From the IMG/VR virus record IMGVR_UViG_3300031857_000010, positions 1-64,000 of that record: 64,000 nt of DNA. One strand, given 5' to 3'. The notes beneath the pieces were generated by a model, which ran no database searches, was not told the DNA's origin, and worked only from the letters and a program-made list of their open reading frames with translations. The stretch's first letter is position 1. Every line of letters starts with the position of its first letter. The DNA is from a virus. Positions 1-48,491 of this stretch are shown piece by piece. The position numbers were made by a program, and so were the translations under genes.

Positions 1-2251
1 ATCAGGAAGTGCAGGTTCATCTGGTACAAGCGGTAGTGCGGGTAGTTCTGGTATAGACGGAAGTTCCGGTTCATCTGGAAGTTCGGGTACATCAGGTAGT
101 GCAGGATCATCTGGTACAAGCGGTAGTGCGGGTAGTTCTGGTACATCAGGAAGTTCTGGTAGTGCAGGAACATCTGGTTCATCTGGAAGTTCGGGTACAA
201 GTGGTAGTTCGGGTAGTTCAGGAACATCTGGTTCATCTGGTAGTTCTGGTACATCTGGATCATCTGGTAGTGCAGGAACTAGCGGTAGTGCAGGTTCATC
301 TGGTACAAGTGGTAGTGCAGGTAGTTCTGGTATAGATGGAAGTTCCGGTTCATCTGGAAGTTCTGGTACATCTGGTTCATCTGGAAGTTCGGGTACAAGT
401 GGTAGTGCAGGTTCTGCTGGTACAAGTGGTAGTGCAGGTAGTTCTGGTGTAAATGGAAGTTCTGGAAGTTCTGGTGTAAATGGAAGTTCAGGATCTTCTG
501 GGGCAGCTGGTACTTCTGGTTCCTCAGGTGTTTCACCTACTTTACCAACTCCTGCTGATTTTATTTGGACTTATGGAAACAGTTATAACACTTCTTTAAA
601 AGTTTTAAGGAATAATTATACATTAAATGTTTATAGTAACTGGAGTATCTTGGCTGGAAGAAGTAATTCGATTGCTCAGTTTGCTGATCATGCTGGAATA
701 TTAGCCGGTAGAGACAACACTATAACATCAACTACATATAGACCAAGTCAATACGCTTTAATATTCGGAGGAAATCAAAGTAAAATTAAGAGATCATCTA
801 AAAATTCAGGTATATTCAATGGATATAAAAACTACATAGGAAATAATGATGACATTTACTTTAATACAACCAAATACAATAATATTACAACTGGAAAGTT
901 AAATAGAATAAATATAAATTTTGTTCCTACTCCTCAAGATAATATTAACATTGATTATAATTTAATTTCAAACGGTATTGGTAATAAAATTTATGCTACA
1001 GCCCATACTCAAAGAAACTTTATAGTAAACGGATACCAAAACTTTTTAGGTTCTGCAAAAGCAAGTTTTATAGATAATGGTGCATACAATAAAATAGAAT
1101 TAAACATAAGAGGATATAAAAACAATTCTGATTATTTCAACGTATACAATAGTGTTTATAGTAAATATCATTTTATAAACAATGGATATAGTAACTTAAT
1201 TTCGGATTACCTAAGAATATATAAAGTAGATACTAATCAAAAATTCGAAATTAAAGGAAGATCAAACAGTATATTAAACGGGACTGATAACGAGATATAT
1301 GGTGGATTAAGTTTTATTACAGATGAAAATGCTACAACAACTTCTTCGCAATCATATTTTAATACTGTTGAAAATGGAAAGCAAAATAAAATCGTAGCTT
1401 CAGGAAAAACAAATTATAATTTCATACAAAATGGTTTACAAAATACAGTAAATAACACTACTAATTCTGGAATTTTAAATGGGTATAAAAATAGAATAAT
1501 ACAAATAATCAATGCAGATATTGATGGAAGGGCAGCCAATAATCTATTAAATAAATATAATAGTATTGGTAATGGAAATAGTAATTTAATTTCTGGACAA
1601 AATAAAGCAAATTCTGATTATACTTCTAAATACAACACTGTAGCTAATGGTAGATTAAATAAAATAGAAGCTACTTCATATAGAGGATATAGTGCAAATA
1701 CAGAATATAATTTTATTGCAAATGGAAGAGGAAATGAAATTTATGCAGCAAAATTTTCTGGTATTTTGGGTGGATCTGGACACACTATTCGTTTTAATCA
1801 TTCTGTTATACTTGGAGGTACAAATCTCACATCAACAAGAGATGAAGAAGCTAGAGTTAAGAATTTAACTATTACAAATCAAGTTCTTGGTGGAGATAGA
1901 TTTTTAACTATTGACTCTGCAACAGGTTATGTTTATTATACGGGAACTACTGGAGGGGGTAGTGGTTCTGGAACTTCTGGTTCAAGTGGTAGTTCTGGAA
2001 TTAATGGAAGTTCAGGATCTTCTGGTAGCTCTGGGGCAAGCGGAAGCTCAGGTTCATCAGGAAGTGCTGGAGAAAGTGGAAGCTCAGGTTCATCAGGAAG
2101 CACTGGGGCAAGTGGAAGCTCAGGTTCATCAGGAAGTACTGGAGCAAGTGGAAGTTCAGGATCTTCTGGTAGTTCTGGTGCAAATGGTTCATCAGGAAGT
2201 TCTGGTGCAAGCTTTCAACAAATGTTAATAATAACATCATTAGGAGTGTAA
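1..2251 (+). CDS. Collagen-like tail fibre protein (5' end outside the window)
   Basis: The reading frame is open from base 2 to the stop at 2249-2251, so the gene starts upstream and about 749 residues are visible. Three zones are seen: residues 1-175 are a regular Gly-X-Y repeat in which X and Y are nearly always Ser, Thr or Ala; residues ~215-615 carry about 17 copies of a degenerate NGxxNxI repeat; residues ~650-735 are a second Gly-Ser-Ser repeat. It ends with a short tail, GASFQQMLIITSLGV. Gly-X-Y segments are common trimeric stalks in phage fibres, and the NGxxNxI units look like a beta-roll or beta-helix. A TTG at 650 is internal and not a start. Position before three probable fibre-associated genes supports a host-contact role. 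The very high Ser/Thr content makes it a candidate O-glycosylation substrate. Confidence 0.85.
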   Translation, partial: SGSAGSSGTSGSAGSSGIDGSSGSSGSSGTSGSAGSSGTSGSAGSSGTSGSSGSAGTSGSSGSSGTSGSSGSSGTSGSSGSSGTSGSSGSAGTSGSAGSSGTSGSAGSSGIDGSSGSSGSSGTSGSSGSSGTSGSAGSAGTSGSAGSSGVNGSSGSSGVNGSSGSSGAAGTSGSSGVSPTLPTPADFIWTYGNSYNTSLKVLRNNYTLNVYSNWSILAGRSNSIAQFADHAGILAGRDNTITSTTYRPSQYALIFGGNQSKIKRSSKNSGIFNGYKNYIGNNDDIYFNTTKYNNITTGKLNRININFVPTPQDNINIDYNLISNGIGNKIYATAHTQRNFIVNGYQNFLGSAKASFIDNGAYNKIELNIRGYKNNSDYFNVYNSVYSKYHFINNGYSNLISDYLRIYKVDTNQKFEIKGRSNSILNGTDNEIYGGLSFITDENATTTSSQSYFNTVENGKQNKIVASGKTNYNFIQNGLQNTVNNTTNSGILNGYKNRIIQIINADIDGRAANNLLNKYNSIGNGNSNLISGQNKANSDYTSKYNTVANGRLNKIEATSYRGYSANTEYNFIANGRGNEIYAAKFSGILGGSGHTIRFNHSVILGGTNLTSTRDEEARVKNLTITNQVLGGDRFLTIDSATGYVYYTGTTGGGSGSGTSGSSGSSGINGSSGSSGSSGASGSSGSSGSAGESGSSGSSGSTGASGSSGSSGSTGASGSSGSSGSSGANGSSGSSGASFQQMLIITSLGV
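5..525 (+). repeat. Collagen-like Gly-Ser/Thr coding repeats, block 1
   Basis: This is a run of 9-nt units encoding Gly-Ser-Ser, Gly-Thr-Ser, Gly-Ser-Ala and occasional Gly-Ile-Asp or Gly-Val-Asn triplets. Larger duplications lie on top. A stretch starting at 8 recurs at 287 with only silent changes over about 90 bases, and a 30-base piece at 22-52 recurs 90 bases later. The pattern is typical of recombination or slippage within a fibre stalk. Confidence 0.9.
650..1845 (+). repeat. Degenerate NGxxNxI protein repeats within the fibre
   Basis: About 17 units follow a hydrophobic-hydrophobic-x-N/G-G-x-x-N-x-I/L pattern, for example NFIVNGYQNFL, HFINNGYSNLI, NTVANGRLNKI and NFIANGRGNEI, spaced by variable loops of roughly 10-30 residues. 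The DNA is not repetitive, so the repeat is old. The pattern resembles YadA-head-like left-handed beta-roll or beta-helix coils, but the fold is inferred. Confidence 0.7.
1952..2208 (+). repeat. Collagen-like Gly-Ser-Ser coding repeats, block 2
   Basis: A second Gly-X-Y stretch near the C-terminus is built from units such as Gly-Ser-Ser-Gly-Ser-Thr-Gly-Ala-Ser. Two almost identical 45-base copies (around 2070-2115 and 2115-2160) indicate recent tandem duplication. Confidence 0.85.
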
Positions 2252-2256
2252 AAATT

Positions 2257-3159
2257 ATGATAATAGATTCAACAACAGATTCAATAAATGTTTTATTGTC
2301 GGGTAATGTAATAACATCGCAATTGGATATAATATCCTCTTATAATACTATAACTACAACATCTTTAACTCCGGGAAAATTTCAAGGTACAACTAATAAT
2401 TTAACACCAGTTACCATTGTTCCCTCTCCCGGTGTCAACCAACAAAATCAACTGAGATTTTGTTCTATATATAATAATGATAGTACAAACGCTACTGTAA
2501 CAATTCAATATAGTGGAAATGCGGGACAATCAATTATATTTATATCTAGTATTGATGCTGGAGATTCCATTCAATTTACTCATGATAAGGGTTGGGGGAC
2601 TTATGGTGCAGAAGGGGAGCAAAGAGTTTTGGGAATGAATGATGCTCCCGGAGAATTAAGATTTCCAATAAATCTTAAACCAATAAATTTAACAGATATA
2701 TTAACCTTGGCATCAGGTACAGATTATGGCTTTCATTTAGGAGAGGCAGATAGGGCTTATTCCAAAGTTAGTATTAGGTATAACGTTGTGAGTAATCCCA
2801 CTCCAACAACTTATGCTGAAGTTGCTATATATAAAACTCAATTTAAATTAGCTTCAGCAACTACTGTAGTAAATCTATGTGGATTTGCTGATATATCTGG
2901 AGTTATAAATACGACCGGAAACAAAACAACAACTATTAATGTTACAGGAATAACAGAAAACGATGATTTATTTGTTGTATTTGGAACTGTTCATACTGGA
3001 ACATTTACATTAAGAGCTGGTTTGGTTGATTCATTAGAGTCCGGTGGAGCAGGTTCAGTAGCTGGAAGCTTAAGACCTTCAACAAATTCAAGTTTAACAC
3101 TAAACACTTCCGGTGTTTTAAATATTCCTTGGATTGCATATCAACCATCTCAATGGTAA
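2257..3159 (+). CDS. Fibre-associated virion protein, paralogue 1 of 3
   Basis: This 300-residue protein starts 5 bases after the fibre stop. I cannot name a family. It is clearly paralogous to the next two genes: a shared N-terminus (MIIDSTTDSINVLLSG here), a central LGEADRAYSKVSIRY element at about residue 165, and a GSLRPSTNSSL element near the C-terminus. It is rich in Ser, Thr, Asn and Val with predicted beta-strands, has no signal peptide and few charged residues, as in phage adhesins or fibre-tip proteins. Context (directly after the fibre, same strand, A-rich spacer, no Shine-Dalgarno) suggests a fibre tip, baseplate decoration or receptor-binding role. This is inference only. Confidence 0.65.
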   Translation: MIIDSTTDSINVLLSGNVITSQLDIISSYNTITTTSLTPGKFQGTTNNLTPVTIVPSPGVNQQNQLRFCSIYNNDSTNATVTIQYSGNAGQSIIFISSIDAGDSIQFTHDKGWGTYGAEGEQRVLGMNDAPGELRFPINLKPINLTDILTLASGTDYGFHLGEADRAYSKVSIRYNVVSNPTPTTYAEVAIYKTQFKLASATTVVNLCGFADISGVINTTGNKTTTINVTGITENDDLFVVFGTVHTGTFTLRAGLVDSLESGGAGSVAGSLRPSTNSSLTLNTSGVLNIPWIAYQPSQW

Positions 3160-3171
3160 AAAAAATAAATT

Positions 3172-4110
3172 ATGGTATTAGACGCAACAACAGATTCGCT
3201 TGAAGTTATATTATCAACGGCACACTCAGTAAGACCGCTGCAATTTTATGTATCTTATAATACTATTAATGTAACCAATTCGACAATAGTTCCCACAAAA
3301 AGTTTTGGTTCAACAAATGGTATTACATCTGTAACTATGGTTTCTGCACCATCATCTAACGAAGTAGATCAAGTAAAATTTCTTTCAATTTACAACTGTG
3401 ATAATAGACAAAATACTGTTACTGTAAGGATAAATTCATCATCTAATTTTAGAATATTATTTTCAATTCAATTGCTTAGTGGAGAGCAACTTCAATACAC
3501 AATTGCTGATGGTTTTAAAGTTTTTAATATGGATGGTATTTTAAAAACTGCAAATGCAACAGTTGGAAGTGCCGGAGTTAAATATGCTGTTTTACCTAAT
3601 CCATACTCTAATGGAACACAAACAATAACCAGTGGAACTGATTATGCATTTTATTTGGGAAAAGCAGATAGAAGATATGATTCTGTAACAATTCAATTAG
3701 CTGTTACTACAGCACTTGGAGCTACAATAACATGGGCAGAAGCAGCAATATATAAAGGTTATCCAGAAATTGCAACAAATTTGACTTTGACCAGATGTGG
3801 ATTTGTCGATGTTTCGACTGGTACAAACCACGGCGTAAATGCTACTGGAGGTAAAACTATTGTTATACCAATAGGTGATGGTAATCTTTCTGTTGGAGAG
3901 GATATTTGGTTTGTTATAGGGACTGTTACAAGTGGTACGGCTTTAGTTCTAAGATCTGTTGGGGCTGGTGGTGTAGATACTATAGGTGCAGGCATTGTTC
4001 AAACAGTAACCGGAAGTTTTAGACCATCAACAAATTCATCACTTTCTTTTACACTTCAAACAGCAGTCCAACCAGTACAAGTTGCTTGGTTTGGTGCTAT
4101 TAATGTTTAA
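3172..4110 (+). CDS. Fibre-associated virion protein, paralogue 2 of 3
   Basis: This 312-residue paralogue of the flanking genes starts with MVLDATTDSLEVILS. It carries LGKADRRYDSVTIQL in the middle and GSFRPSTNSSLSF near the end. Between these anchors the sequence differs strongly from its neighbours, as expected for surface loops under selection. The spacer to the previous gene is 12 bases of A and T without a Shine-Dalgarno. The three genes appear to form one transcription unit with the fibre gene. Function unknown; fibre-tip or receptor-binding role inferred from position. Confidence 0.65.
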   Translation: MVLDATTDSLEVILSTAHSVRPLQFYVSYNTINVTNSTIVPTKSFGSTNGITSVTMVSAPSSNEVDQVKFLSIYNCDNRQNTVTVRINSSSNFRILFSIQLLSGEQLQYTIADGFKVFNMDGILKTANATVGSAGVKYAVLPNPYSNGTQTITSGTDYAFYLGKADRRYDSVTIQLAVTTALGATITWAEAAIYKGYPEIATNLTLTRCGFVDVSTGTNHGVNATGGKTIVIPIGDGNLSVGEDIWFVIGTVTSGTALVLRSVGAGGVDTIGAGIVQTVTGSFRPSTNSSLSFTLQTAVQPVQVAWFGAINV

Positions 4111-4122
4111 AAATAAATAAAA

Positions 4123-5037
4123 ATGCTAATAGATAATACCAATGAAACAATTGAACTAGTACTTGCTGCTAGTGTTACGACAAATCAGGCAACATTTTCT
4201 TGTTCATTTAATGAATTTTCATCTAATACGTTTTCAGGGAATGAAACTAATGGTACAAGTAATAATACCACAGCGGTGACTTTAGTAGCAAGTCCTTCAT
4301 CAGGTTTTCAAAGACAAGTTAGAGAATTAATTATTGAAAATAATGATACCGCTTCGATTACAGTCACCATAAGATTTAATAATACATCGGTTACTAGAAT
4401 AATTATGAAAGCTATATTAGCAGTTGGAGATAGTTTAACTTATTCAGCACATGACGGTTGGAATTGTAAAGATACAAACGGAGGAATTAGATTTTATAAC
4501 ATACATATCAATCCAACTGGAAGTGTTAGAGGTCCTGAATTTTTTCCAGTTTCTGCTGCTGCTACGACTACAACTTTAGGTGCGAATGTTGCAGGTCAAT
4601 ATTTGGGTAAAGCTGAAAAGGCATATTCATCAATCGATTTTAGGTATAGAGTTGATACGGCTATTGCTGGTACTCAAACATTTTCTGAACTGGCTGTTTA
4701 TAGGATTTCAAATAGAATGAGCATAGGAACACAACAAGTATGGACAAGATTGGGTTTTACAAACTGTGCTGCTGTATGGAATTCCACCGGTTTAAAAACA
4801 ACTAATGTTGCTCTTACAGGTTGTAGAACAGGTGATGATTTATATGTAATTTGGGCAAGTAATAATACTACATCTATGGCACCAAGAAGTGGCAACTATG
4901 CTGATCCAATAAGTTCAATATTACAAGTTACAACAACAACCGTAGCAAGCTGGAGACCAAGCACATCACCTCTATATCAAGCTACAAGTTTTACTGCAGC
5001 TGCATCAGCTGTATGGGTCTTGTGGCAAGGAAATTAA
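4123..5037 (+). CDS. Fibre-associated virion protein, paralogue 3 of 3
   Basis: This 304-residue third paralogue opens with MLIDNTNETIELVLAAS. It carries LGKAEKAYSSIDFRY in the centre and ASWRPSTSPLY near the end. It is beta-rich and Thr/Ser/Asn-rich with no catalytic motif seen. Its stop region overlaps the stop of the opposite-strand glycosyltransferase gene by 4 bases, so the two converge without room for a dedicated terminator. Function inferred only from its neighbours. Confidence 0.65.
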   Translation: MLIDNTNETIELVLAASVTTNQATFSCSFNEFSSNTFSGNETNGTSNNTTAVTLVASPSSGFQRQVRELIIENNDTASITVTIRFNNTSVTRIIMKAILAVGDSLTYSAHDGWNCKDTNGGIRFYNIHINPTGSVRGPEFFPVSAAATTTTLGANVAGQYLGKAEKAYSSIDFRYRVDTAIAGTQTFSELAVYRISNRMSIGTQQVWTRLGFTNCAAVWNSTGLKTTNVALTGCRTGDDLYVIWASNNTTSMAPRSGNYADPISSILQVTTTTVASWRPSTSPLYQATSFTAAASAVWVLWQGN

Positions 5038-7397
5038 AATATAATTTTATTAATTTTATCTATTACCATATTTGAAGTAATTGATTTGGTACATTCAAAT
5101 TGTCTTGAAGTTCCTTTATGTCTTGGGCACCAATTCCAGTCAGCAGGATCTAATCTAAAATCATTGAAACATCCATTGCAAGTTTTAGTCTGATCTTCTA
5201 CAAACACTCGTTCACAATCTGTCATTTCGCAAATAGGTCTAGAAAAACCACTTATTAATACAGTTGGTTTATTCAATGACCAAGATAACCATGATAAACC
5301 ACTGCCCAATCCAATAAAACCTTCTGAGTGATAAATATAATTACATATTTCTTGAATAGTCTTACCATCTATTTTAATTACACCTTTAGGGTTTTTATTT
5401 CCCATATAATTATCAGGTTCTTTTGATAAAAGAAAAACTTCATAATCATTAGATTTCAAATAGTCAACAACTTCTTGCCAGCCGTTTGGATTATTCCAAT
5501 ATTTAGATTGAGCTGTGGAATGATTAGCAATACAAAAATATTTTTTATTAGTTGGTCTTTCAGATGGAGTAAAATCTATTTTTGGTTTTATTTCTTTGAA
5601 TTCTAATCCCAAAATATCACAAGCTGTTTTTTGTAGATGTTGATCTCTGAAATTAAAAGGATTTTTTGATGATACTATTTCGTTTTTATCATCATAAAAC
5701 CAACCTATAGTAAACATTTTATATAGATTATGAACTACTGATCCCGGTTGAACAAATTCTATTTCTGGATAATTTTTTTCAAAAAAACTATTATGGAAAG
5801 TTGAACATATTACTTTACAATTATTTTTTATTCTAAACTCTTCAACTTGTGGAAACCAAGCGATTGTGTCTCCCAGTGATGAGGAATCTAAGTGTATATA
5901 TATACGTTGATTTTCAAATGATGGTTTAATGATATGAGTTTTACCTTCAAGTTTATATTGTATATAAAAATCTCTATGATATTCTCTGTTCAACTGAGCG
6001 AACATATTATTTCTTAAAGTGGTTTCGTATAAAAGATCATTTGTTTCATTGTCAAAAAATCTGAATTTCACTTCAAATTTTTCTTCGCATTTTAAATCTA
6101 TTCTTGGTTCTTTAAAATATGAAAATAAAACTTCTGTTTTTGTTTTTTTATTTTCTTTAATTGAAATTGGTGTTTTTTCATAAACATCAATTAGTGTATC
6201 TTTAAGATTCATGTTTTCTTTTTTTTCATTATTTGATCCTTTATCAAGTTCAATAAAAGAAGCTCTAAAGTTTTGGTAATTAAAATAAATTGGAATTTTG
6301 TTTTGTATTTTTTGTTTAATCAATTCTAAATTATTTATGCCACTTCTATTGTTATTGTGTAGGTGAGTGTTATCAGAAAAATAATTTATTTTACAATTTA
6401 TATTAGAAGCAATTTCATATATAGTTTCGGCATCATCAAATGAATTTATTCTTAAAAAAGCATAATCCAAATCAATATATTCATCAAAATAAAGATCATG
6501 ATCAAAAAAAAGAATTTTTAGTTTTTCATTTTGTTTTTCATTGTAATTGAAATTAAAGAAACCTATTTTTTTTCTTGAATTTTCCCAGTTTAATGGACTT
6601 ATATATGTTGATTCGGCAGCTTCGTATATATCATCAAAGAATGTGTTTTTTCTCGGATATTCAATATTTGAATTTTTTCTTCTTTCTTTTGCTTCTTTTA
6701 TGAGAACAACCTCACCTCTTATATTCCAATTTCTAAAATTTTCAGAATCATAATGTTGTCTAGCCAAATAAACTGTTCTAGGAATAGTCAACCATTTTCC
6801 TTTTTCTTCGAGATTAATTAACCATTGAGCATCATTAGAAGTACATATTTCATTATCTTCATGTACTTTAAAATTAAGTTCTGGTAAATTTCTAAATATT
6901 CTTAAGTAGCCAAAAATTCCACTTCTTTCTGGTGTCAATCTTTCAAATGCTTCTAAAAATGAATTATTATCTCTTGATATATAAACATTGTCAACAAATC
7001 TTTCTAAAAAATTTTCTTTAGAGGAAGGTAATGAATCTTGATATTTATTAGCATTAAAATGTAGAAAAATAACTTCTGGAAATTTTTCAAAATAAAAAAC
7101 AATCTTTTCAAATGTATTTGGTAAAATTTTATCATCACCATCAATTGGACATACTATGTCTCCGGTAGCATGTAGTTGTGGATTCCACCAAATTTCTTTT
7201 TTATAATTTGGTTTTTTTAATTTTATTCTGTTATCTAGTCTTGAAAGTTCTTCGAGAATTTTACCTGTATTGTCTGAAGAAAAATCGTCAGCTATAATCC
7301 ATTCCCAATTATTATATCTTTGAGACAGAATTGAACTTGCTAATTCTTGGATATATTTTTCAGAATTATAAAAGGAAGTTATTATAGATAATTTCAT
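5034..7397 (-). CDS. GT2 glycosyltransferase fused to autotransporter-type O-heptosyltransferase
   Basis: This 787-residue protein has two recognisable parts. Residues 1-210 are a GT2 domain (MKLSIITSFYNSEKY, IIADDFSSDNTG, and an Asp-rich PIDGDDK near residue 82). Residues ~500-787 match the autotransporter strand-loop-strand O-heptosyltransferase family (TibC/BAHT type): SLGDTIAWFP at ~503, the block KYWNNPNGWQEVVDYL, GLGSGLSWLSWSL, and a C-terminal Cys cluster near 737-768 with the landmark DWNWCPRHKGTSRQFECTK. In TibC-type enzymes four Cys bind iron and the enzyme adds heptose to Ser of autotransporter repeats. All four Cys are present here. The middle (210-490) is unassigned. The gene abuts the Ser-rich fibre region, which suggests fibre glycosylation; the sugar donor cannot be read from the sequence. 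Confidence 0.85.
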   Translation of the reverse strand: MKLSIITSFYNSEKYIQELASSILSQRYNNWEWIIADDFSSDNTGKILEELSRLDNRIKLKKPNYKKEIWWNPQLHATGDIVCPIDGDDKILPNTFEKIVFYFEKFPEVIFLHFNANKYQDSLPSSKENFLERFVDNVYISRDNNSFLEAFERLTPERSGIFGYLRIFRNLPELNFKVHEDNEICTSNDAQWLINLEEKGKWLTIPRTVYLARQHYDSENFRNWNIRGEVVLIKEAKERRKNSNIEYPRKNTFFDDIYEAAESTYISPLNWENSRKKIGFFNFNYNEKQNEKLKILFFDHDLYFDEYIDLDYAFLRINSFDDAETIYEIASNINCKINYFSDNTHLHNNNRSGINNLELIKQKIQNKIPIYFNYQNFRASFIELDKGSNNEKKENMNLKDTLIDVYEKTPISIKENKKTKTEVLFSYFKEPRIDLKCEEKFEVKFRFFDNETNDLLYETTLRNNMFAQLNREYHRDFYIQYKLEGKTHIIKPSFENQRIYIHLDSSSLGDTIAWFPQVEEFRIKNNCKVICSTFHNSFFEKNYPEIEFVQPGSVVHNLYKMFTIGWFYDDKNEIVSSKNPFNFRDQHLQKTACDILGLEFKEIKPKIDFTPSERPTNKKYFCIANHSTAQSKYWNNPNGWQEVVDYLKSNDYEVFLLSKEPDNYMGNKNPKGVIKIDGKTIQEICNYIYHSEGFIGLGSGLSWLSWSLNKPTVLISGFSRPICEMTDCERVFVEDQTKTCNGCFNDFRLDPADWNWCPRHKGTSRQFECTKSITSNMVIDKINKIIF

Positions 7398-7423
7398 TTA
7401 TATAATTTTATTTATTTAAAACA

Positions 7424-8905
7424 TTAAAAATTCTTGAGTTTTTTATTTTTAATCTTAATTGCAAAGTTATCCATTTTTAAATTAAAAGGGATTTTATTCA
7501 CAAAAAACTGAGTTAATCTATATTGTCCAAAATTTATTCTTAATTCATATAATTCATTTTCTTTAAGAGGTGAACTTGGAACCATATAAAAAGAGTTATT
7601 TTTTATTCTACACCCAGAAATTACAACTCCATTTTTATTATGTACAGTTGCCATTATAAATAAATTTTTTTCACATAAAAATTCAAATCTTATATAATTT
7701 TCTTCCACGTTAATTAAAAATGTAGAATTTACAAATTCTTCACTCTCTAAATATTCATTTTTGACAAATGAAATTTTAACTGCATTATCTGCTAACCAAG
7801 TTTTACCAAAAGAATGGTCACAATTTAACCAAGTTTTTTCAATATCTGGTCTAGATTTATAATCTATTAATTTTTTCTCTGTTTCACAATCTTTTGATAA
7901 AGTCCAATCTGTTTCGGTATAACTATTGTAATTTTGATTTTCACCAACCCTTAACCATTTTTCTTCGAATTGAGTGTGAGATAATCCTCTAAAAATTCCC
8001 CATGAGCTGACACGAGGTAAACATATTGATTCATTACCCCTTTCGAAAAAAGAAATATTATTCATTTTTAATCTAAAAAACCAATCTAAATCTTCACACT
8101 CACCTCCAATAAATCTTTCATCCATCAAGCCAATTTTTCTAAACAATTGTTTTGAACAACCAAAAAGTCCAAAATTAACCTCTGAAACAAATGCATAACC
8201 AGAACACAAGAGAACTAAAAGATTTTCTATAATTTCAAACGTTGTATTTACTCTTGGATGAATCCAAAAAATAAATTCACTATCATGCATACAAAATACA
8301 GACTCATTTATAATTTGAGAAAAAGAATTGTATGTGCCTGACCAAATTTCATTTCTAAACCATGTTTCATAAACAAAATTATTTTTTACACAATCTTTTA
8401 GAATTATTTTTTCATTTTCATAATTATTTTTACCTAAAAAAGCTAAACCTATTTTCGATGGTTTTAATTGACGAGCTTTAAGGAATTTGAAGTATTTATC
8501 AGTTACATCGTTCAAAAATGATATTTTTTGAGTTCCATTAAATATTAATATTAAATTTTTTTGATCTGTAATATTTATTTTAAAAGATGTTATATCAATT
8601 AAATCTTTTAATTTATTCTCAATTAAAAAATATTCTTCATTGTTTTCTGTAATAATAGCTATTGATCCCCAAAGGTTAATTTTATTTATCAAACTATGTA
8701 TGTCATTATTTTCATTATCTGATAAATCTTTAAATTTTATTATTATCAAATCAAATTTATGATTCAAAGAATTATAATAAATTTCACTTGATTGATTGCT
8801 GTAATCCTTTTTATTTTCTAAAATTGAATTTTTGTCTAAAATTTTTGAATAATTTAATAAATTACAAGTTGTAATAAGTAATTCTTTGATAAATATATAA
8901 TTCAT
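7424..8905 (-). CDS. GT-A type glycosyltransferase-like protein
   Basis: This is a 493-residue protein. The central part (about 150-330) looks like a GT2/GT-A domain: a HDSEFIFWIHPR segment in the place of the metal-binding motif, then FGLFGCSKQLFRKIGLMDER followed by GGECEDLDWFFRL, the usual acceptor-side acidic motif of GT2 enzymes. The N-terminal ~150 residues are Asn/Ile/Lys-rich and unassigned; the C-terminal ~120 residues look like a beta-sandwich. It lies 26 bases upstream of the O-heptosyltransferase gene, and its start follows the stop of the RmlD-like gene directly. Donor and acceptor are unknown. Confidence 0.65.
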   Translation of the reverse strand: MNYIFIKELLITTCNLLNYSKILDKNSILENKKDYSNQSSEIYYNSLNHKFDLIIIKFKDLSDNENNDIHSLINKINLWGSIAIITENNEEYFLIENKLKDLIDITSFKINITDQKNLILIFNGTQKISFLNDVTDKYFKFLKARQLKPSKIGLAFLGKNNYENEKIILKDCVKNNFVYETWFRNEIWSGTYNSFSQIINESVFCMHDSEFIFWIHPRVNTTFEIIENLLVLLCSGYAFVSEVNFGLFGCSKQLFRKIGLMDERFIGGECEDLDWFFRLKMNNISFFERGNESICLPRVSSWGIFRGLSHTQFEEKWLRVGENQNYNSYTETDWTLSKDCETEKKLIDYKSRPDIEKTWLNCDHSFGKTWLADNAVKISFVKNEYLESEEFVNSTFLINVEENYIRFEFLCEKNLFIMATVHNKNGVVISGCRIKNNSFYMVPSSPLKENELYELRINFGQYRLTQFFVNKIPFNLKMDNFAIKIKNKKLKNF

Positions 8906-9697
8906 TTATAAATATTTTTTTTTAAAGTATATCATAGATAAAATTTGCATATCTAGACTTGGTAAATTAATATCACTTTCTAGACATTTGTTTATGTTTT
9001 TTTTATTAAGAACGGGATTTATTTTTTTATTTAAATGTAGAAAATTATTAAATTTTGATAGTAATTGATATTTGCTTAATTTTTCTGAGCCTACTTGAAT
9101 TACATTTTCAAAATTTTCAGGATTTTCTATAATAAATTCACAAATTTCAGCCCACTGCAATGTAGTTATTCCATTCCAAAAAACATTAGTAAATCCATCA
9201 ATTATTTGTCTTTCATTATTAACAAACCAATTCCAAAGAGAAAAATTAGAATTTTTTTCTGGTCCAACGATAGAAGTTCTTATTTGCTTTACATTTTTAT
9301 AGTTTTTCTCTAAGAACAATGATCCATATGCTTTGGATGAACCATAATTATCTTCAGCATTTCTTATTGTTTTTTTTGAATAAAATCCATTTTCTTCAAT
9401 ATTACCATTAAACTCACAATCTGTGCTAGGATGAATGATCAATCCATTAAAATTATCAGCCAACCATATTGGAAGCATGATGTTAATCGTTAAGTAATCA
9501 TTAAGTTTTGGATTTTTTTGAGGAATAATTCCTATGCAATTAATTAATACATCAGCTTCAGAATTTTTAATTTTCAGTTTAAAATTTTCATCAGGCCATT
9601 TCAAATCTAATGTATCAACTTTGAAACCTTTGATTTTAAAATAACTTAAAACAACATGGCCTAACATACCATTGTGGCCCAATATTAAAATTTTCAT
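8906..9697 (-). CDS. RmlD-like NAD(P)-dependent sugar-nucleotide reductase
   Basis: This 263-residue short-chain dehydrogenase starts with a clear Rossmann motif (ILILGHNGMLGHVV). It also has an NCIGIIPQ stretch, STDCEFNG, and the catalytic YGSSK at about residue 117. The order fits the RmlD family (dTDP-4-dehydrorhamnose reductase and relatives), which reduce 4-keto sugar nucleotides; family members are usually 280-300 residues. The stop codon is followed immediately by the ATG of the next gene, so the two are probably translationally coupled. No RmlA, RmlB or RmlC is visible nearby, so the substrate may come from the host or from the PseB-like enzyme two genes upstream. Confidence 0.75.
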   Translation of the reverse strand: MKILILGHNGMLGHVVLSYFKIKGFKVDTLDLKWPDENFKLKIKNSEADVLINCIGIIPQKNPKLNDYLTINIMLPIWLADNFNGLIIHPSTDCEFNGNIEENGFYSKKTIRNAEDNYGSSKAYGSLFLEKNYKNVKQIRTSIVGPEKNSNFSLWNWFVNNERQIIDGFTNVFWNGITTLQWAEICEFIIENPENFENVIQVGSEKLSKYQLLSKFNNFLHLNKKINPVLNKKNINKCLESDINLPSLDMQILSMIYFKKKYL

Positions 9698-9700
9698 TAT

Positions 9701-10252
9701 TTAGTAAATTAATTGTTTAAATCTACTGATTTTTTTTACCATGGTAACGCCCGGATTAAATGGTAGTGTTAGAATTTCAAAATCGTCAATTAAATTTTTT
9801 TTAATAAATAAAGGGGTTTTATATGCATCATTACAAAAACCCGGATCAAACATGTAAGGGTCATAAGGGTATGTATCATGAAAGAATATGAATCCATCTT
9901 CTATAATGTGTTTTGAGGCATTCATAAAATCTTTTAAAGATTGTTCATGTGAATGATCAGCATCAATAAAAATCATATCAAACTTAATGTTGGGATCTAG
10001 TTCTTCAAAAAATTTGTCTGTTGTCATTTGAAAATATTTCATATTACCTTTTAAGTTAAATGGACATGATGATGTGTCTACTCCCCAAGACTCTTGACAA
10101 AATTCAGAAATTGGATTAAAATTTCTTCCATCTCTCACACCAAGCTCTAAATATCTTTCAGGTTTTAAGTATGAACATATAAATGAAAAATAAGATACAT
10201 GATCAAATGTTTCAAGTGGTGGTGGTACGTTTCTTAAGTGTATTGGTTTCAT
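9701..10252 (-). CDS. Class I SAM-dependent methyltransferase
   Basis: This 183-residue protein has the Methyltransf_24 layout: a SAM-binding loop YLELGVRDGRNF near residue 35, FDMIFIDADHSHEQSLKDF near 90-108, and GFIFFHDTYPYDPYMF near 118-133. The acidic FIDADH and HDT motifs are typical of small sugar or cephalosporin-hydroxylase-like methyltransferases in polysaccharide loci. It lies 3 bases from the RmlD-like gene and 8 from the PseB-like gene in the same orientation, so methylation of a sugar is likely. Substrate unknown. Confidence 0.75.
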   Translation of the reverse strand: MKPIHLRNVPPPLETFDHVSYFSFICSYLKPERYLELGVRDGRNFNPISEFCQESWGVDTSSCPFNLKGNMKYFQMTTDKFFEELDPNIKFDMIFIDADHSHEQSLKDFMNASKHIIEDGFIFFHDTYPYDPYMFDPGFCNDAYKTPLFIKKNLIDDFEILTLPFNPGVTMVKKISRFKQLIY

Positions 10253-10259
10253 ATTTTTT

Positions 10260-11186
10260 TTAAATATTGTTGAAGTAATTTTTGTTCAATAAAAATGTAT
10301 TTAATTCTTCTTTACTTAGACAGTGATCTTTACTTGAATATTCTTTGAAATTTAATTCATTGAAAACCTTATGATAATGCATTAACAAATAATTATCAAT
10401 TTCTTTTGTTCTAGAAACTTCTTCTTCTGCAATCATGATTTCGTGTATTTTTTCAGATATTCTTGGTTCACCTATTTTATATCTCAAACCAAATTTTTTT
10501 TGATAAATTTCGAAAAGATCTTTAATATAAAAACTTTTTATTTTAGGTATTATATTGTAGCTTTTTTGTGTCAAAGAAAATTCAACTAACTCTATAGCTT
10601 CATCAATAGTCAAAATAAATCTTGTCATATTTTCAGAATATAGAGTCAGTTCGTAGTCTTTTTTTATAGCATCCCAAATTAGAGGGATAATACTTCCAGT
10701 AGAATTAGCAACATTTCCATAAATTGCACAACTCAATCTTGTTTCTGAGCATTCAGAGTTCACTATAAAACTTTCTCCAGCTACAAATTTCATAGCTCCA
10801 TATAAAGTCGTAGCTCCTCTACTCTTATCAGAAGAAATAAAACAAGCTGATTCCATCTTATTTTCCTCTGCTACCCTTCTTGAGTTTAATGCCCCTTCTA
10901 TAATTATTTTTACTGCTTCCTCCACGTTTTGATCAACACTTTCTATTTGTTTTAGAGAAGCTGCAAAAATTCCAATATCATGTTTTGTTGAAGCTCTCTT
11001 TAATAAATCATAGTTTCTAATATCTCCAATTACAGTTTTAATTTTTGGATATTCTTTTTTTAAAAAATAATGCTTTGATTCATCTCTACTATAAACTGTA
11101 ATTTCGTTATTATTATAATATTTTTTTATAAGATTTTTACCTAAAAAACCTGCACCTCCGGTTATAAATATTTTTTTATCTTTCAT
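10260..11186 (-). CDS. PseB/FlaA1-like UDP-GlcNAc 4,6-dehydratase family protein
   Basis: A 308-residue extended SDR. It has the N-terminal glycine motif FITGGAGFLGKNL, a VIGDIRNYDLL stretch, and the active-site segment SSDKSRGATTLYGAMKFVAG near residue 115-134. The pairing of an SDK motif with YxxxK is characteristic of the Polysacc_synt_2 group, such as PseB and FlaA1. Enzymes of this type convert UDP-GlcNAc to a 4-keto-6-deoxy sugar, the first step towards pseudaminic acid or bacillosamine-type sugars. No PseC or later enzymes are seen, so the final product is open. It lies 5 bases downstream of the giant fusion gene. Confidence 0.75.
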   Translation of the reverse strand: MKDKKIFITGGAGFLGKNLIKKYYNNNEITVYSRDESKHYFLKKEYPKIKTVIGDIRNYDLLKRASTKHDIGIFAASLKQIESVDQNVEEAVKIIIEGALNSRRVAEENKMESACFISSDKSRGATTLYGAMKFVAGESFIVNSECSETRLSCAIYGNVANSTGSIIPLIWDAIKKDYELTLYSENMTRFILTIDEAIELVEFSLTQKSYNIIPKIKSFYIKDLFEIYQKKFGLRYKIGEPRISEKIHEIMIAEEEVSRTKEIDNYLLMHYHKVFNELNFKEYSSKDHCLSKEELNTFLLNKNYFNNI

Positions 11187-11191
11187 AATTT

Positions 11192-14100
11192 TTAAATTAA
11201 ATCAAATTCATGGTCTAGGTTTTTTGAATATTGTAAATATCTTTCATATTCCTCCATAAACGGATTTAGATTTCCCCCCTGTGAAGCTCCGGGTTGATAG
11301 TACCATCTTTCGTTCAAATGATATATTTTTGGATCTAGATATTTGTTCGCAATTCTCACTGTTCCATCTATTTCATTTTTCCATGGATTTTCATTCTCTT
11401 CTAAAGAAGAAATTAGAAATTCTCTATTCCAGATACATGCATTGTGAGTCAAAAGCCATTCACTATTATTTTTTGCTTTTAATACTCTTTTACCTTCAAC
11501 AAAATGACTTGTTTTAATAAATTCATATGAACCCCAAAGCTTTTCATGTATTCTTAGACAGTTCCAATCGTTTAACCTAACCTTGTGAAGAGATTTCTTG
11601 AAAGTATTATAATCAGCTTTTACTGTAAGCCACATATCTTCCTGCATATATAATACATATTTTGTATTCAATTTACTCAAAATATCGAGTAGTCTATTTG
11701 AAAATTGAGATGAGTCAATTGATTTAGGAGATTTAATGTTATTAACCCTGAAATCATTGAATGGTAAATCTTTTTCTTCTGTACAAAAATATACCGGCCA
11801 ATTCAAACTCCAATCCCAATATCTGGAAAAAGATAAATACCAACCATTCCAAAATCTTTCATAATTATCACATGATTGAATAATTACAGTTATATCATCA
11901 TCAATATTTTCTTTTCTATATATTGGGGTATTTGGATCGATATCAGTTCCCTCTTTAAATCTCATATCTATTGATGATATTCCGGGCTGTTGAAGAAAAT
12001 AAGGTATTCTATAAATTCCTCTTTTTCTGTTCCAGAAAAATATATTACACCATAGATCATATGCATCCCAATTTGTATTTAATAGTTTATCTGCATATTC
12101 ATTTATGTGAGATTTAGTTATTAAATAACAATGTGCTTCTGATTGTTTGAACGTGAAGAACAAATCATTAACTATATTTTCGTGCTCAACTCCCGGAATT
12201 TGTTTACCAAAAGATGTTGAGATTAAATCATGTTTATTGTTTAAAAAATAGGTATCTATAATTTTTTCATAAACTTCTTTATATTCACCAAAAACTATAC
12301 AATCACATTCACAAATCAATATAGCATCATAATTTTTTATATAATCATCACAAATTGATTTTTTGTGTGAATTATAACATCCATAGTGAGATGGTGTCAA
12401 CAAATAATCTCCGGGATTTAAAGATATTGCGTGTGGTCTTTGACAATTTTCATAAGGGGGTAAATCATAATATTTTGGTGTTATTAATTGTTCATAATCT
12501 AATCCGTAAGATGATAGGTTGCGAAGAGATTCTATAGATTTAATTTCTCTTGGACCTTCGGGATTATTTAATATATGAATTATTTTGATTTTTGGTTTTT
12601 TGATACAATAAAAATTAGATAAATTTTTATCATCTGTATAATTGTCTTGATAATTGAAGCCACAATCTTTTAAAGTTTTTACTATAAAATTATACCCTTC
12701 AATTCCTATTGAATTAATATGAATCTCTCCTGTTATTTTCTTTATTTTATGTTTTAAAAAATCTTTGTCAATAGTTTCAAAAAATTCTAATTCTGCCCCT
12801 TCGCAATCAATCTTTAAATAATCGATATAATTGATATTGTTTTCAGAAATAAAATCATTTACATTTTTTATTGTGACTTTTTCTTTTTTTCTATTTAAAC
12901 CCCAATAATGTTCTATGTTTTCTGTTAATTCTTTCTTACCTGATATTGATGAAACCTCGCCTGTTAAAAATTCTACTTCTTCATTTTTAGCACCTATTCC
13001 GAAATTGAAAACTTGTATGTTGGATAAATCTTTTGTATTAAATTTTAAATATTCATATGTCTCTTTTATGGGTTCTATTGAATAAACCTTTTTAGCACCC
13101 ATCGAAGCAGCATATAATGTAAAAAGTCCTATATTAGAACCAATATCAACAACTATATCATTATTCTCTATGTTTTTATAATCTTCTCTTATGAAAATTT
13201 CATAAAAACTCCAAAATGAAGAATGATCTATTGGATTACATTTAAGTTCTATTTTTTTATTTTGTATTATTATTTCTGTTGTTGGAAATACATTTGGTTT
13301 CCATGTAGTTTTTTTTAAATCTAAAAAAGATTCACTTTGTATTATGTTTAAATCGTTGTCAAAAAATTCTACACAAATTCCATTTCTATGATTTTGTTGA
13401 GCATTTGGAATCATCCACATTCCATCTCCCTTATTGAAAGATAAGTCTGAATATAGACTTTGAAAAACTAAATTGGTTAAGGGGTCTCTCATTCTTATAT
13501 TGTATGTTTTGAGAGAAGGGTGATTGCTTATTATTGAATAATGTATTTTACCTTCATTTTCATCATAAGACACATCAAAAAATTTTTGTTTAGTTCTAAG
13601 TTTTAATTTATCTTTAATTAATTCAATATTGTTCTCTGAATTAGATAAATAATTTATATTATCAAATTTATCAAAATAATTTTGATATACATCTAAATTA
13701 TAAAGTAGAATTGGAATTTTCCAACCGATAGCTTCTCTTAAAACTAAAGGCATTGTCTCTTTATCACCATTATTGCCCCTAGATGTAAAAAGAAATAAAT
13801 CCATGCAACTGTAAAAAGTATCTGTATCATTTCTTTCACCCCATATTCTGCAATTTGCAGGTTTGTTAATTAATAAAGGTTCCCAATAGAATTTAAAATT
13901 ATCAGCCTGATTTCCTAAAAAATGAAATTCTACAGTATTGTCAAAATATTTAGCTAATTCAAATATTTCAGCTTGATTTTTTCTTGGTGTAAAAAGTCCA
14001 ACATTTAATATATGTTTTTTTTTGGGATCTAATCCTAGTTTTATTAATGTTTCCTCTCTATTGGGTCTTTCTTTGTATTCTATTGGATATTCTGCCAAAT

Positions 14101-14557
14101 ATTTAGGAACATCAATATTTTTATATTGTTCAATTTGCCAATTGCTTACAAAAAGAAATGCATCTGGAAAATATTTTTTGTTTTCATCCGGATTGTAAGA
14201 TGAATCATGACTAGTTTCAAAAATTTTATATGATCTATTTTTATTATAAATAAAATCAGCAATTTCTTTTGGTAAAAAATATTCCGGAATTTCTTCAATA
14301 TGAATGAAATCTGGTTTGATATTATCAATTAAATCTTTAATTTCATATAATTTGTTTTGTCCTAAAGAGAAAAAATGATTTTCATCTAAAATTTTTGTTA
14401 TTCTGTTTCTTTGAATTACTAAAACTCCACCAGTAATATTTTCATATTCAATACAGAAAACCTCTAATTTATCCTTAAGAAGTTCTATTTTTTTGAATAA
14501 GTATTGTGGTAGACCCCCTGTTGAAAGGTGTGGAGCAATAAATATTATTTTTTTCAT
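11192..14557 (-). CDS. Four-module GT-FkbM methyltransferase-GT fusion protein
   Basis: This 1121-residue protein is the largest of sugar cluster I. Residues 1-330 are a GT-B (GT4-like) domain: FIAPHLSTGGLPQYLF, HILNVGLFTPRKNQAEIF near 195 and MPLVLREAIGWKIPILLYN near 285. Residues ~465-640 are an FkbM methyltransferase: VVDIGSNIGLFTLYAASMGA near 470, YSIEPIKETYEYLKFN, and YLKIDCEGAELEFFE. Residues ~655-880 form a third domain containing ILICECDCIVFGEY, resembling a GT-A fold. Residues ~887-1121 form a fourth, GT-A-like domain (VIIQSCDNYERFWNGWYLSF, LYMQEDMWL). The fusion suggests sequential addition and methylation on one acceptor. It starts the sugar cluster I operon, 41 bases after the structural gene block. 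Confidence 0.8.
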   Translation of the reverse strand: MKKIIFIAPHLSTGGLPQYLFKKIELLKDKLEVFCIEYENITGGVLVIQRNRITKILDENHFFSLGQNKLYEIKDLIDNIKPDFIHIEEIPEYFLPKEIADFIYNKNRSYKIFETSHDSSYNPDENKKYFPDAFLFVSNWQIEQYKNIDVPKYLAEYPIEYKERPNREETLIKLGLDPKKKHILNVGLFTPRKNQAEIFELAKYFDNTVEFHFLGNQADNFKFYWEPLLINKPANCRIWGERNDTDTFYSCMDLFLFTSRGNNGDKETMPLVLREAIGWKIPILLYNLDVYQNYFDKFDNINYLSNSENNIELIKDKLKLRTKQKFFDVSYDENEGKIHYSIISNHPSLKTYNIRMRDPLTNLVFQSLYSDLSFNKGDGMWMIPNAQQNHRNGICVEFFDNDLNIIQSESFLDLKKTTWKPNVFPTTEIIIQNKKIELKCNPIDHSSFWSFYEIFIREDYKNIENNDIVVDIGSNIGLFTLYAASMGAKKVYSIEPIKETYEYLKFNTKDLSNIQVFNFGIGAKNEEVEFLTGEVSSISGKKELTENIEHYWGLNRKKEKVTIKNVNDFISENNINYIDYLKIDCEGAELEFFETIDKDFLKHKIKKITGEIHINSIGIEGYNFIVKTLKDCGFNYQDNYTDDKNLSNFYCIKKPKIKIIHILNNPEGPREIKSIESLRNLSSYGLDYEQLITPKYYDLPPYENCQRPHAISLNPGDYLLTPSHYGCYNSHKKSICDDYIKNYDAILICECDCIVFGEYKEVYEKIIDTYFLNNKHDLISTSFGKQIPGVEHENIVNDLFFTFKQSEAHCYLITKSHINEYADKLLNTNWDAYDLWCNIFFWNRKRGIYRIPYFLQQPGISSIDMRFKEGTDIDPNTPIYRKENIDDDITVIIQSCDNYERFWNGWYLSFSRYWDWSLNWPVYFCTEEKDLPFNDFRVNNIKSPKSIDSSQFSNRLLDILSKLNTKYVLYMQEDMWLTVKADYNTFKKSLHKVRLNDWNCLRIHEKLWGSYEFIKTSHFVEGKRVLKAKNNSEWLLTHNACIWNREFLISSLEENENPWKNEIDGTVRIANKYLDPKIYHLNERWYYQPGASQGGNLNPFMEEYERYLQYSKNLDHEFDLI

Positions 14558-14598
14558 TAATTATAAAATTAATAAAAAAAACTTAAAAAAGAAATTAT

Positions 14599-26509: not shown

Positions 26510-26555
26510 GAACAATAAAAAAATCAATAATTTTTTAATGATATATTTATTATCA

Positions 26556-26945
26556 ATGGCTAATACAATAAATATCCGATTTCCGTTCAGAGAAACTTAT
26601 GATGGTGGTGTTTTTGATAGTACAATTACATCTGAAGCAGCTTATCAATCAGATTTAATATCTCTTTTGACAACAAAAAGAGGTCAAAGAGTTATGAGAT
26701 CTAAATTATATTCTCCAATATATGATTATTTAATGGAGCCTTTAGATACCATTACTGAACAAGAACTAAGGAGAGATATAGATTCAAAGGTTAGAGAGTA
26801 CATACCACAAATTGAGATAAAAAAAATTAGATTTAATCCAGATTATGATAATAATGCTCTCGGAATTAAAATTATTTACATTATAAAAGAATATTTTAGT
26901 ATTGAGAAAACTTTAGATTTATCTTTCCCAACTGAAATACAATAA
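26556..26945 (+). CDS. 25: Baseplate wedge protein gp25-like
   Basis: This 129-residue protein matches the GPW/gp25 family: MANTINIRFPFRETYDGGVF, then LLTTKRGQRVMRSKLYSPIY and IEIKKIRFNPD. In T4-like phages gp25 bridges the baseplate wedge to the sheath and tube; family members are about 100-135 residues. I chose the ATG at 26556 because homologues begin near MANxxxxRFPF. An ATG at 26538 would add MIYLLS, which looks like untranslated leader. The gene is followed after 5 bases by gp6, the classic wedge neighbour, but both lie on the opposite strand to the flanking structural genes. Confidence 0.88.
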   Translation: MANTINIRFPFRETYDGGVFDSTITSEAAYQSDLISLLTTKRGQRVMRSKLYSPIYDYLMEPLDTITEQELRRDIDSKVREYIPQIEIKKIRFNPDYDNNALGIKIIYIIKEYFSIEKTLDLSFPTEIQ

Positions 26946-26950
26946 TAAAA

Positions 26951-40388: not shown

Positions 40389-40394
40389 AATTAT

Positions 40395-41039: not shown

Positions 41040-41040
41040 A

Positions 41041-42015: not shown

Positions 42016-42023
42016 TTATTTAA

Positions 42024-43157: not shown

Positions 43158-43221
43158 ATAATTTATTTTGTCTTTAATGAAATAAAAATAAAATAAAATA
43201 TAGGAAATAAAATATTAAAGA

Positions 43222-45798: not shown

Positions 45799-45807
45799 AA
45801 TTTTAAT

Positions 45808-46479: not shown

Positions 46480-46498
46480 ATTTATTATTTTAATTTGT

Positions 46499-47596: not shown

Positions 47597-47625
47597 ATGT
47601 TGTAATGTTGATTTTATTAAATTTA

Positions 47626-48489: not shown

Positions 48490-48491
48490 AT

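Follow-up and report, generated by a model that had tools for sequence, protein, structure and literature searches.

The enzymes of the TibC/AAH type, which belong to the BAHT family of bacterial autotransporter heptosyltransferases, assemble as ring dodecamers and transfer sugar to Ser. Glycosylation is also found in collagen-like proteins such as BclA and the collagens of mimivirus, and, to our knowledge, the glycosylated collagens of Riftia, BclA and mimivirus depend on enzymes other than BAHT. The cuticle collagen of Riftia is described as carrying galactosyl-threonine (PMC10141479). In all three the sugar sits on hydroxyl side chains of Gly-X-Y proteins, and in this they resemble the fibre proposed here. 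The known substrates of BAHT enzymes are beta-helical autotransporters, whereas the candidate acceptor considered below is a Gly-X-Y chain: as judged from sequence, the stretch analysed probably holds a virion-protein O-glycosylation module that acts on the phage's own collagen-like fibre.

The window, that is, the whole stretch of 64,000 bases, comprises bases 1-64000 of a virus contig of 216,699 bases (IMGVR_UViG_3300031857_000010), and no deposited phage gave a megablast match to its positions 1-14600. At its start lies an ORF (2-2251, + strand) for a collagen-like, tail-fibre-type protein of 749 aa, open at the 5' end, where the contig begins. It is followed on the same strand by three fibre-associated paralogues (2257-3159, 3172-4110 and 4123-5037), the last of which converges with the gene of a GT2-BAHT fusion glycosyltransferase of 787 aa (5034-7397, - strand), the proposed fibre O-glycosyltransferase, their stop codons overlapping by 4 bases. 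The fibre repeats, the three associated proteins, the fusion and the stop overlap had all been named in the original prediction and are confirmed in the sequence. The "six sugar genes" that it placed after the fusion amount to five ORFs up to position 14557, all on the - strand. Neither Pfam, at its curated cut-off, nor NCBIfam, at E 0.01, gave a match for one of these, a protein of 493 aa (7424-8905), which is possibly a GT-A glycosyltransferase from a motif judged by eye. The others are an RmlD-like NDP-sugar reductase (8906-9697), a methyltransferase (Methyltransf_24; 9701-10252) and a Polysacc_synt_2 (PseB/CapD-type) nucleotide-sugar dehydratase (10260-11186), all assigned by Pfam, and a protein of 1121 aa that joins GT4, an FkbM methyltransferase and an unassigned C-terminal part (11192-14557; Pfam, NCBIfam). 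Nucleotide-sugar genes are plentiful in the record. The locus is not a product of chance, since the Pfam and NCBIfam scores exceed their cut-offs and phages that have diverged widely show the arrangement again.

The C-terminal half of the fusion is a member of the TibC/AAH BAHT family. The family model TIGR04414 matches residues 418-785 (5043-6146, - strand) with 286.9 bits against a cut-off of 200, over model positions 7-374 of 374 (NCBIfam), and TibC matches this half with E 2e-54 (phmmer). The predicted structure of the domain (pLDDT 91.7) aligns with TibC (4rap) at Z 40.4 over 356 residues (model 25-392), whereas WaaC, WaaF and another GT9 give Z 19-22 and align only from residue 95-102 on; the N-terminal beta-barrel of TibC is kept in the model, which is closer to TibC than to the LPS heptosyltransferases. 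Relative to the catalytic and contact residues listed for TibC (eLife 2014 e03714, PMC4358343), the aligned enzyme keeps Asp110 (its residue 510), Lys230, Trp305 (its residue 703) and Thr226, as well as the four iron-finger cysteines (C740, C743, C757 and C769 at 5091-5180, - strand, aligned to C339, C342, C358 and C370), and P300 is replaced by Gly. D110, K230, W305 and the four cysteines are kept in 44/44 clusters, whose IMG/VR members come from the best 80 of 427 stretches, and T226 is T or S. The GT2 domain occupies the other end of the fusion (residues 4-118 matched, 7044-7388, - strand; PF00535, 3.4e-20), with DGDD in its sequence.

No autotransporter passenger was found beside the fusion enzyme, whose neighbour is the collagen-like protein. 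The latter scores 116.5 bits against PF01391 Collagen (cut-off 27.2, Pfam) and has PHROG tail fibre matches, largely through its repeats; because of these matches and of the baseplate genes in the same phage record (26538-28807), we infer that the fibre is part of the virion, so that a phage glycosyltransferase gene is linked in the window to a predicted structural-type fibre gene. A domain in which [IV]xNGxxNxI motifs recur (~530-1880) lies between two Gly-X-Y blocks (~2-529 and ~1900-2225). Stretches with six or more consecutive Gly-X-Y triplets add up to 258 residues, in which X is Ser or Thr in 73/86 triplets and Y in 67/86. Proline is absent from these stretches (0/258 residues) and from those of L003 (0/729), a near-identical contig that extends upstream with an ORF of 1002 aa and 729 Gly-X-Y residues, its repeats showing one apparent frame break and part of the ORF perhaps overlapping the window's portion. 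Charged residues make up a fraction of 0.01 in the copy that L013 carries. Without frequent proline or charged residues at X and Y, the fibre is unlike the proline- or charge-stabilised bacterial collagens. Circular closure was considered as a source of the missing 5' end and rejected, as no Gly-X-Y ORF is present in the 19.7 kb before the contig's far end. Collagen repeats are common in IMG/VR.

As TibC and AAH are described as acting on beta-helical passengers (PMC4358343), and the enzyme gene abuts the third paralogue, the sugar might go to another part of the fibre (the NGxxN repeat domain, a probable beta-solenoid) or to the three paralogues. This is unlikely, given that, among 44 cluster representatives (IMG/VR members from the best 80 of 427 stretches), none but the window's phage and the 76% relative has the paralogues, and none but the window's phage has the NGxxN domain (the fibre of the relative is cut by the contig end), while Gly-X-Y proteins recur beside the enzyme; moreover, the fibre's NCBIfam matches (E 0.01) include no strand-loop-strand repeat family. 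As for the paralogues, the products of 2257-3159 and 3172-4110 are each 28-29% identical to that of 4123-5037, and the first has no match in Pfam, PHROG or NCBIfam. Fold comparison did not identify the third, for which the beta-rich model of low confidence (pLDDT 61), whose closest fold scored E 0.005 and TM 0.16, was not usable.

The pairing of enzyme and collagen-like gene was followed in other genomes. BAHT is rare in deposited phages (4 records among 50,697), and the IMG/VR loci come from the best 80 of 427 stretches; clusters with short flanks were dropped (15/42 phage, 3/11 bacterial, 10/59 GMD and 46/59 terminase), and L009, L102 and L103 were left out of the tree for their long branches. 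BAHT has a collagen-like ORF no more than 5 kb away in 17/27 usable phage clusters, the window's phage and the 76% relative included, and in 5/8 bacterial clusters, against 0/49 clusters (one also with BAHT) for the control sugar gene GMD, which may not sit in tail regions (Fisher 2e-10, BAHT vs GMD). No ORF separates the Gly-X-Y gene from the enzyme in L073, L044, L095, L096, L097 and L101, and its neighbour in several bacteria, Methylobacter and Methylomicrobium among those with such a pair, is a small (Gly-Ser/Thr-Ser)n protein that seems to be exported, with no tail gene seen nearby by eye. The pair is also present in Microcystis phage Mel-JY01 (L007; fibre ORF 2-3052, enzyme 4750-8430), a deposited phage whose host is named and on which the papers searched have nothing. 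This recurrence in many phages and some bacteria suggests that the enzyme puts sugar on the fibre.

The association has its exceptions. In 10/27 phage clusters (IMG/VR members from the best 80 of 427 stretches) collagen is missing from the 5 kb around the enzyme, and bacteria L099, L100 and L103 have none in the flank examined; G004, G006, G008 and G149 have no Ser/Thr-rich collagen near the enzyme, but one elsewhere in the record. Twelve further BAHT records, picked for missing or odd nearby collagen, included six, of 8-50 kb, without any PF01391 match and three with a match below the cut-off. The original prediction held that it would be refuted by relatives in which the enzyme occurs and a Ser-rich fibre does not: one large record, LR756504 (636 kb), is of this kind, since it carries the enzyme and PF01391 matches nowhere in it. 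In many lineages, and not in the controls, the enzyme is linked to Ser/Thr-rich collagen. The linkage could also reflect in part a gene that merely sits in the tail-fibre region, the control for tails being weak: the terminase set retained 13/59 clusters, six of them with BAHT, and was seeded from L027, L020 and L007, the first two without nearby collagen, and a baseplate-gene control of six loci was not used.

The composition of the collagens bears on this point. Among the matches listed, the median Ser/Thr fraction is 0.465 in 20 phage clusters with BAHT vs 0.165 in 74 collagen records without it (p 8e-8), after exclusion of 3 BAHT-bearing records from these controls and of 3/80 collagen-pattern loci that had no run of 36 residues; the difference holds at GC <= 0.40 (20 vs 30 records, p 1.7e-5, in the same matches), and the BAHT-linked collagens are mostly proline-poor. 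In the inverse test, again among the matches listed, 3/77 collagen records picked regardless of BAHT carry the enzyme, all within the 9 richest in Ser/Thr (a cut of 0.45, set after the values were seen), as compared with 0/68 of the remainder; the other 6/9, records of 17.6-55.5 kb, are without it. No BAHT was found in G035 and G064. It is very unlikely, then, that the linkage is wholly positional, with glycosyltransferases gathering near tail genes and Gly-Ser/Thr collagens simply common in these AT-rich phages: the abundance of collagen repeats in IMG/VR, GMD genes that may lie outside tail regions, and a small terminase control drawn mostly from lineages without nearby collagen are compatible with it, but the inverse test ties BAHT to Ser/Thr-rich collagens only, the gap survives matching for GC, and the pairing extends to bacteria in which no tail gene was recognised nearby by eye.

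R286, described as highly conserved and needed in TibC (PMC4358343), where it contacts adenine, is Ile in the window enzyme and Arg in 23/44 clusters (IMG/VR members from the best 80 of 427 stretches). The lack of Arg does not necessarily rule out ADP-heptose, for Val stands there in the five phage clusters that carry HldE-like genes; the TibC-type donor residues, tried as an identifier, do not settle the donor. The 216.7-kb record, possibly incomplete, gave no match to TIGR02199, the ADP-heptose adenylyltransferase, and the host could supply ADP-heptose; heptose is only the default reading for the sugar.

In the 76% relative the fusion enzyme and the GT4 protein are kept, together with a collagen-like ORF, which is cut, and paralogues numbering four, and three other genes, including a DegT-type fragment and a hexapeptide-type gene, replace 7424-11186; the genes at 7424-8905, 8906-9697, 9701-10252 and 10260-11186 were not found in it. 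A GT4 part like that of 11192-14557 occurs in 26/34 phage cluster representatives (IMG/VR members from the best 80 of 427 stretches). GT9 enzymes act on the LPS core, the GT2 part is weakly similar to GtrB-type proteins (E 8e-5), and nucleotide-sugar genes are many, so that the cluster might instead alter the host surface glycan (O-antigen/LPS conversion, superinfection exclusion), the fibre being only its receptor-binding partner. We regard this as quite improbable: the GT9 part is of BAHT type and not of WaaC/WaaF type, a crude hydropathy test found no strongly hydrophobic segment in the window's sugar genes, and with it no candidate membrane transporter, polymerase or lipid-carrier transferase, and in bacteria the enzyme has as its partners Gly-Ser/Thr proteins that seem to be exported.

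The best reading is that a conserved enzyme and swappable sugar genes would O-glycosylate the fibre; the core of this, as the original prediction proposed it, is well supported by comparison (family, fold and linkage). That prediction's further points, cluster II as a source of more donors and a coat that would shield the fibre or alter host range, are conjectural. We infer the acceptor, the order of additions and the timing as follows: a cytoplasmic enzyme of the BAHT family would take the first sugar from a nucleotide-sugar and attach it to Ser/Thr residues within the Gly-Ser/Thr-Ser repeats; transfer would be expected on the unfolded chain, before trimerisation; and extension or tailoring of the glycan would fall to the GT2 fused to the enzyme, to the GT4 of 11192-14557 and to the exchangeable NDP-sugar genes. 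A wider proposal, tentative and on balance doubtful, is that a large BAHT branch, present in phages as well as bacteria, has as its substrates proline-free (Gly-Ser/Thr-Ser)n proteins, in which dense O-glycosylation replaces proline/hydroxyproline for stiffness and stability and swappable sugar genes give each phage its own glycan coat. If true, phages would build glycoprotein fibres themselves, using a defined enzyme, an acceptor of known type (Gly-Ser/Thr-Ser) and interchangeable sugar genes, which could explain some of the sugar genes near phage tail genes; a virulence-linked enzyme family would gain a new class of substrate, and there would be a simple bacterial route to glycosylated collagen. 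Since Mel-JY01 carries the pair, this is testable now if the isolate has been kept.

The papers searched contained no glycosylated collagen described with BAHT, no paper joining phage, heptosyltransferase and collagen-like protein, and none joining a glycosylated collagen-like bacteriophage tail fiber with a glycosyltransferase. Mycobacteriophages are reported to carry glycans on their own structural proteins (Freeman et al. 2023, cited in PMC12619734), as is predicted here; there the C-termini of capsid and tail tube are described as glycosylated (PMC12619734), whereas in the window the predicted target is a fibre and the enzyme a BAHT. EPclA, from an E. coli prophage, is likewise phage-borne, collagen-like and, as described, trimeric, but it is reported as proline- and charge-rich and, as a recombinant protein, sugar-negative (PMC3368898), while the window repeats are proline-free with few charges. 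Close to the window system, too, are TibC-TibA and AAH-AIDA-I (TIGR04414; eLife 2014 e03714, PMC4358343), with which the window enzyme shares family, fold, D110, K230, W305 and the iron-finger cysteines, and in which the gene is likewise described beside that of a repetitive, Ser-containing surface protein (PMC4358343). It differs from these systems, as they are described, in that its partner is collagen-like, the enzyme is fused to a GT2, Ile stands in place of R286 and Gly in place of P300, additional sugar genes are present, and the whole is borne by a phage.

The window covers bases 1–64,000 of a 216,699-base virus contig, which begins inside the ORF of the collagen-like fibre (2–2251, + strand). 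The visible part of this ORF runs from Gly-X-Y repeats, through a middle of approximately 450 residues with recurring [IV]xNGxxNxI motifs, to Gly-X-Y repeats again. Within the second repeat block ARAGORN calls a tRNA-Arg (1944–2032), most likely a false positive arising from the repeats, and in a near-identical contig (L003) the fibre repeats show an apparent frame break at about 16063–16380, from either assembly error or real variation. Next on that strand come three mutually paralogous proteins (2257–3159, 3172–4110 and 4123–5037), and the third is met, with a 4-base overlap, by the convergent gene 5034–7397 (− strand). Five more genes share the strand of the latter and encode an unknown protein, an RmlD-like reductase, a methyltransferase, a PseB/CapD-type dehydratase and a 1121-aa GT4-FkbM protein. 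Baseplate genes lie at 26538–28807, and a second, longer sugar cluster (38494–56969, − strand) holds epimerases, a GDP-mannose 4,6-dehydratase, a UDP-glucose dehydrogenase type, FkbM methyltransferases, GT2s, an NAD-synthase-like protein (43222–43977) and many unknowns. An acidic low-complexity tandem repeat with a 33-base period (57832–58035) lies inside ORF 57457–58101.

The 787-aa product of 5034–7397, a fusion with an N-terminal GT2, is assigned to the TibC/AAH-type protein O-heptosyltransferases (BAHT) on the basis of its scores, modelled fold and kept residues. Residues 418–785 score 286.9 bits against TIGR04414 (cut-off 200), and phmmer matches TibC at 2e-54. The AlphaFold model (pLDDT 91.7) aligns with TibC at Z 40.4, N-terminal barrel included, and with WaaC and WaaF at Z ∼20, barrel not included. 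An alignment of 94 loci, grouped into 44 clusters, was checked at the positions named as important for TibC (PMC4358343): D110, K230, W305 and the iron-finger cysteines, all four of them, are conserved in 44/44 clusters, position 226 is T or S, and P300 is kept in none of the 44. R286, described as highly conserved and as a residue without which TibC is inactive or much less active (PMC4358343), is present in 23 of the 44 clusters and is Ile in the window enzyme.

One check proposed with the original prediction was whether fibre and enzyme occur together in relatives. Counting as collagen-like any ORF with 30 or more residues in runs of at least six triplets, 17/27 phage and 5/8 bacterial clusters with sufficient flank have one no more than 5 kb from the enzyme (19/27 and 6/8 within 10 kb), vs. 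0/49 GDP-mannose dehydratase control clusters, which include one with BAHT and are not matched for tail position. A terminase control gave 0/13, and it is weak, with 13 of 59 clusters usable, six of them having BAHT, and with seeds L027, L020 and L007, the first two of which have no nearby collagen. Fisher tests, which count clusters as independent events although they are not, give p = 2e-10 for the comparison with the first control and 1e-4 for that with the weak second one. The 46 control records divide into four with both, two with the enzyme only (both weaker matches), four with collagen only and 36 with neither (Fisher p 0.0055).

A collagen match is found in 21 of 25 BAHT-bearing records, the window's included, the metagenome records being fragments. 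Two of the remainder (G005, G018) are phage fragments whose same-cluster relatives G004 and G006 do carry collagen, and G019 spans 24 kb. Among 12 further BAHT records, chosen for missing or odd nearby collagen, six have a match (three above cut-off) and six, of 8–50 kb, have none. In four records whose collagen is distant from the enzyme, that collagen nonetheless lacks proline and is rich in Ser/Thr (fraction in G004 0.55, G006 0.57, G008 0.50, G149 ∼0.6). The fourth of the 25 records without a collagen match, the 636-kb phage LR756504, is a true exception.

The association is selective for composition. Median Ser/Thr fraction is 0.465 in enzyme-linked collagens of 20 phage clusters and 0.58 in seven bacterial ones, vs. 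0.165 in 74 collagens without the enzyme (p 8e-8 and 2.5e-5); limited to records of GC ≤0.40, the difference keeps p 1.7e-5 (GC in the window is 0.23–0.35 in 2-kb steps). Two linked phage collagens are low in Ser/Thr: L055, whose first collagen block actually reaches 0.46, and L044, of which a 240-residue piece is visible. The inverse test drew at least 80 IMG/VR loci by bare glycine-codon pattern and kept 77 with runs of at least 36 residues, spanning Ser/Thr fractions of 0.02 to 0.60. The enzyme occurs in three of the 77 records (one match being a contig-end piece), all within the nine with Ser/Thr ≥0.45, and in none of the 68 below, p 0.0011 with the cut chosen after the values were seen. 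Linked collagens are also poor in proline (median 0 vs. 0.052) and charge (0.021 vs. 0.079), and proline is absent from 12/20 linked phage, 5/7 linked bacterial and 10/74 control collagens. Six Ser/Thr-rich collagens in BAHT-less records are proline-poor too (0 to 0.039), and therefore the lack of proline tracks Ser/Thr richness and not the enzyme alone.

The cleanest argument that the acceptor would be the repeats, and not the paralogues or the fibre's other domains, comes from bacteria. At five loci (two Methylobacter, one Methylomicrobium, one Polaromonas MAG and one gammaproteobacterial MAG), no more than 300 bases separate the enzyme from a small Gly-Ser/Thr-repeat protein (L093 8860–9723, L095 8848–9729, L097 11013–11714, L096 11130–11438 and L101 11189–11815) with, by eye, an apparent signal peptide or lipobox. 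Visual inspection of the listed ORFs up to 5 kb away recognised no autotransporter or tail gene. The five are possible new glycoprotein pairs of methanotrophs and other proteobacteria; bacterial loci L099, L100 and L103 have no collagen within the flank examined.

Deposited phages yielded only four BAHT records, three of them distinct (Microcystis phage Mel-JY01, a 735-kb and a 636-kb phage), IMG/VR at least 427 stretches, the best 80 of them examined, and a bacterial genome scan 11 loci. Bacterial and phage enzymes intermingle in a quick tree that leaves out three long-branched rows. A 76% relative (L005) retains the fusion enzyme and the GT4 protein together with four paralogues and a collagen-like ORF that the contig end cuts short; where the window has 7424–11186, it carries three other genes, one a DegT-type fragment, one for a hexapeptide transferase and one unknown. 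In 26/34 phage cluster representatives there is a part resembling the GT4 of 11192–14557 (phmmer E ≤1e-5), a count that may include other GT4s, such as BAHT-fused ones. Fusions of BAHT with another part occur in 12/34 phage clusters; seven N-terminal parts tested beyond the window's GT2 are all GT4-type (L016 slightly under cut-off), and L084 has a GT2 too. In Mel-JY01 (PP395634.1, locus L007), a + strand collagen-like fibre ORF (2–3052) is missing from the deposited annotation, which places there opposite-strand hypothetical genes (1–651, 739–2298) and one + strand gene (2519–3052). Record G047 carries at 311225–313182 a BAHT (767-aa frame) and, after it, an incomplete further copy (open frame of 295 aa), with collagen-like repeats nearby at 315477–317258.

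No ADP-heptose adenylyltransferase was found in the window's 216,699-base record. HldE-like adenylyltransferase and kinase genes occur in five phage clusters (L018, L019, L020, L027, L035). In three of these they immediately follow a stand-alone BAHT, in operons of overlapping genes (L020 11122–12256, L027 11137–12271, L018 11104–12232) that possibly encode an ADP-heptose supply, with matches to TIGR02199 and TIGR02198 at E 1e-26 to 1e-33, under the curated cut-offs. Position 286 is Val in all five clusters, and therefore loss of the Arg need not equal loss of ADP-heptose.

Taken together, the sequence comparisons suggest that BAHT and the Gly-X-Y fibre most likely act as a glycosylation pair; no published account of such a pair was found in the open-licence literature. 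During infection, the BAHT domain would place one sugar on Ser/Thr of nascent Gly-X-Y chains inside the cell, and the GT2, the GT4 and the variable genes would tailor it, possibly for shielding or host range, as first proposed. Proline and charge are the usual stabilisers of the triple helix, and a Gly-Ser/Thr-Ser chain that has neither of them lacks this support. A worm collagen is seemingly stabilised by sugar on threonine (PMC10141479), and the prophage collagen EPclA, rich in proline and charge, is stable in unglycosylated form (PMC3368898); hence the bold reading that in fibres of the window's type glycosylation may take the place of proline.
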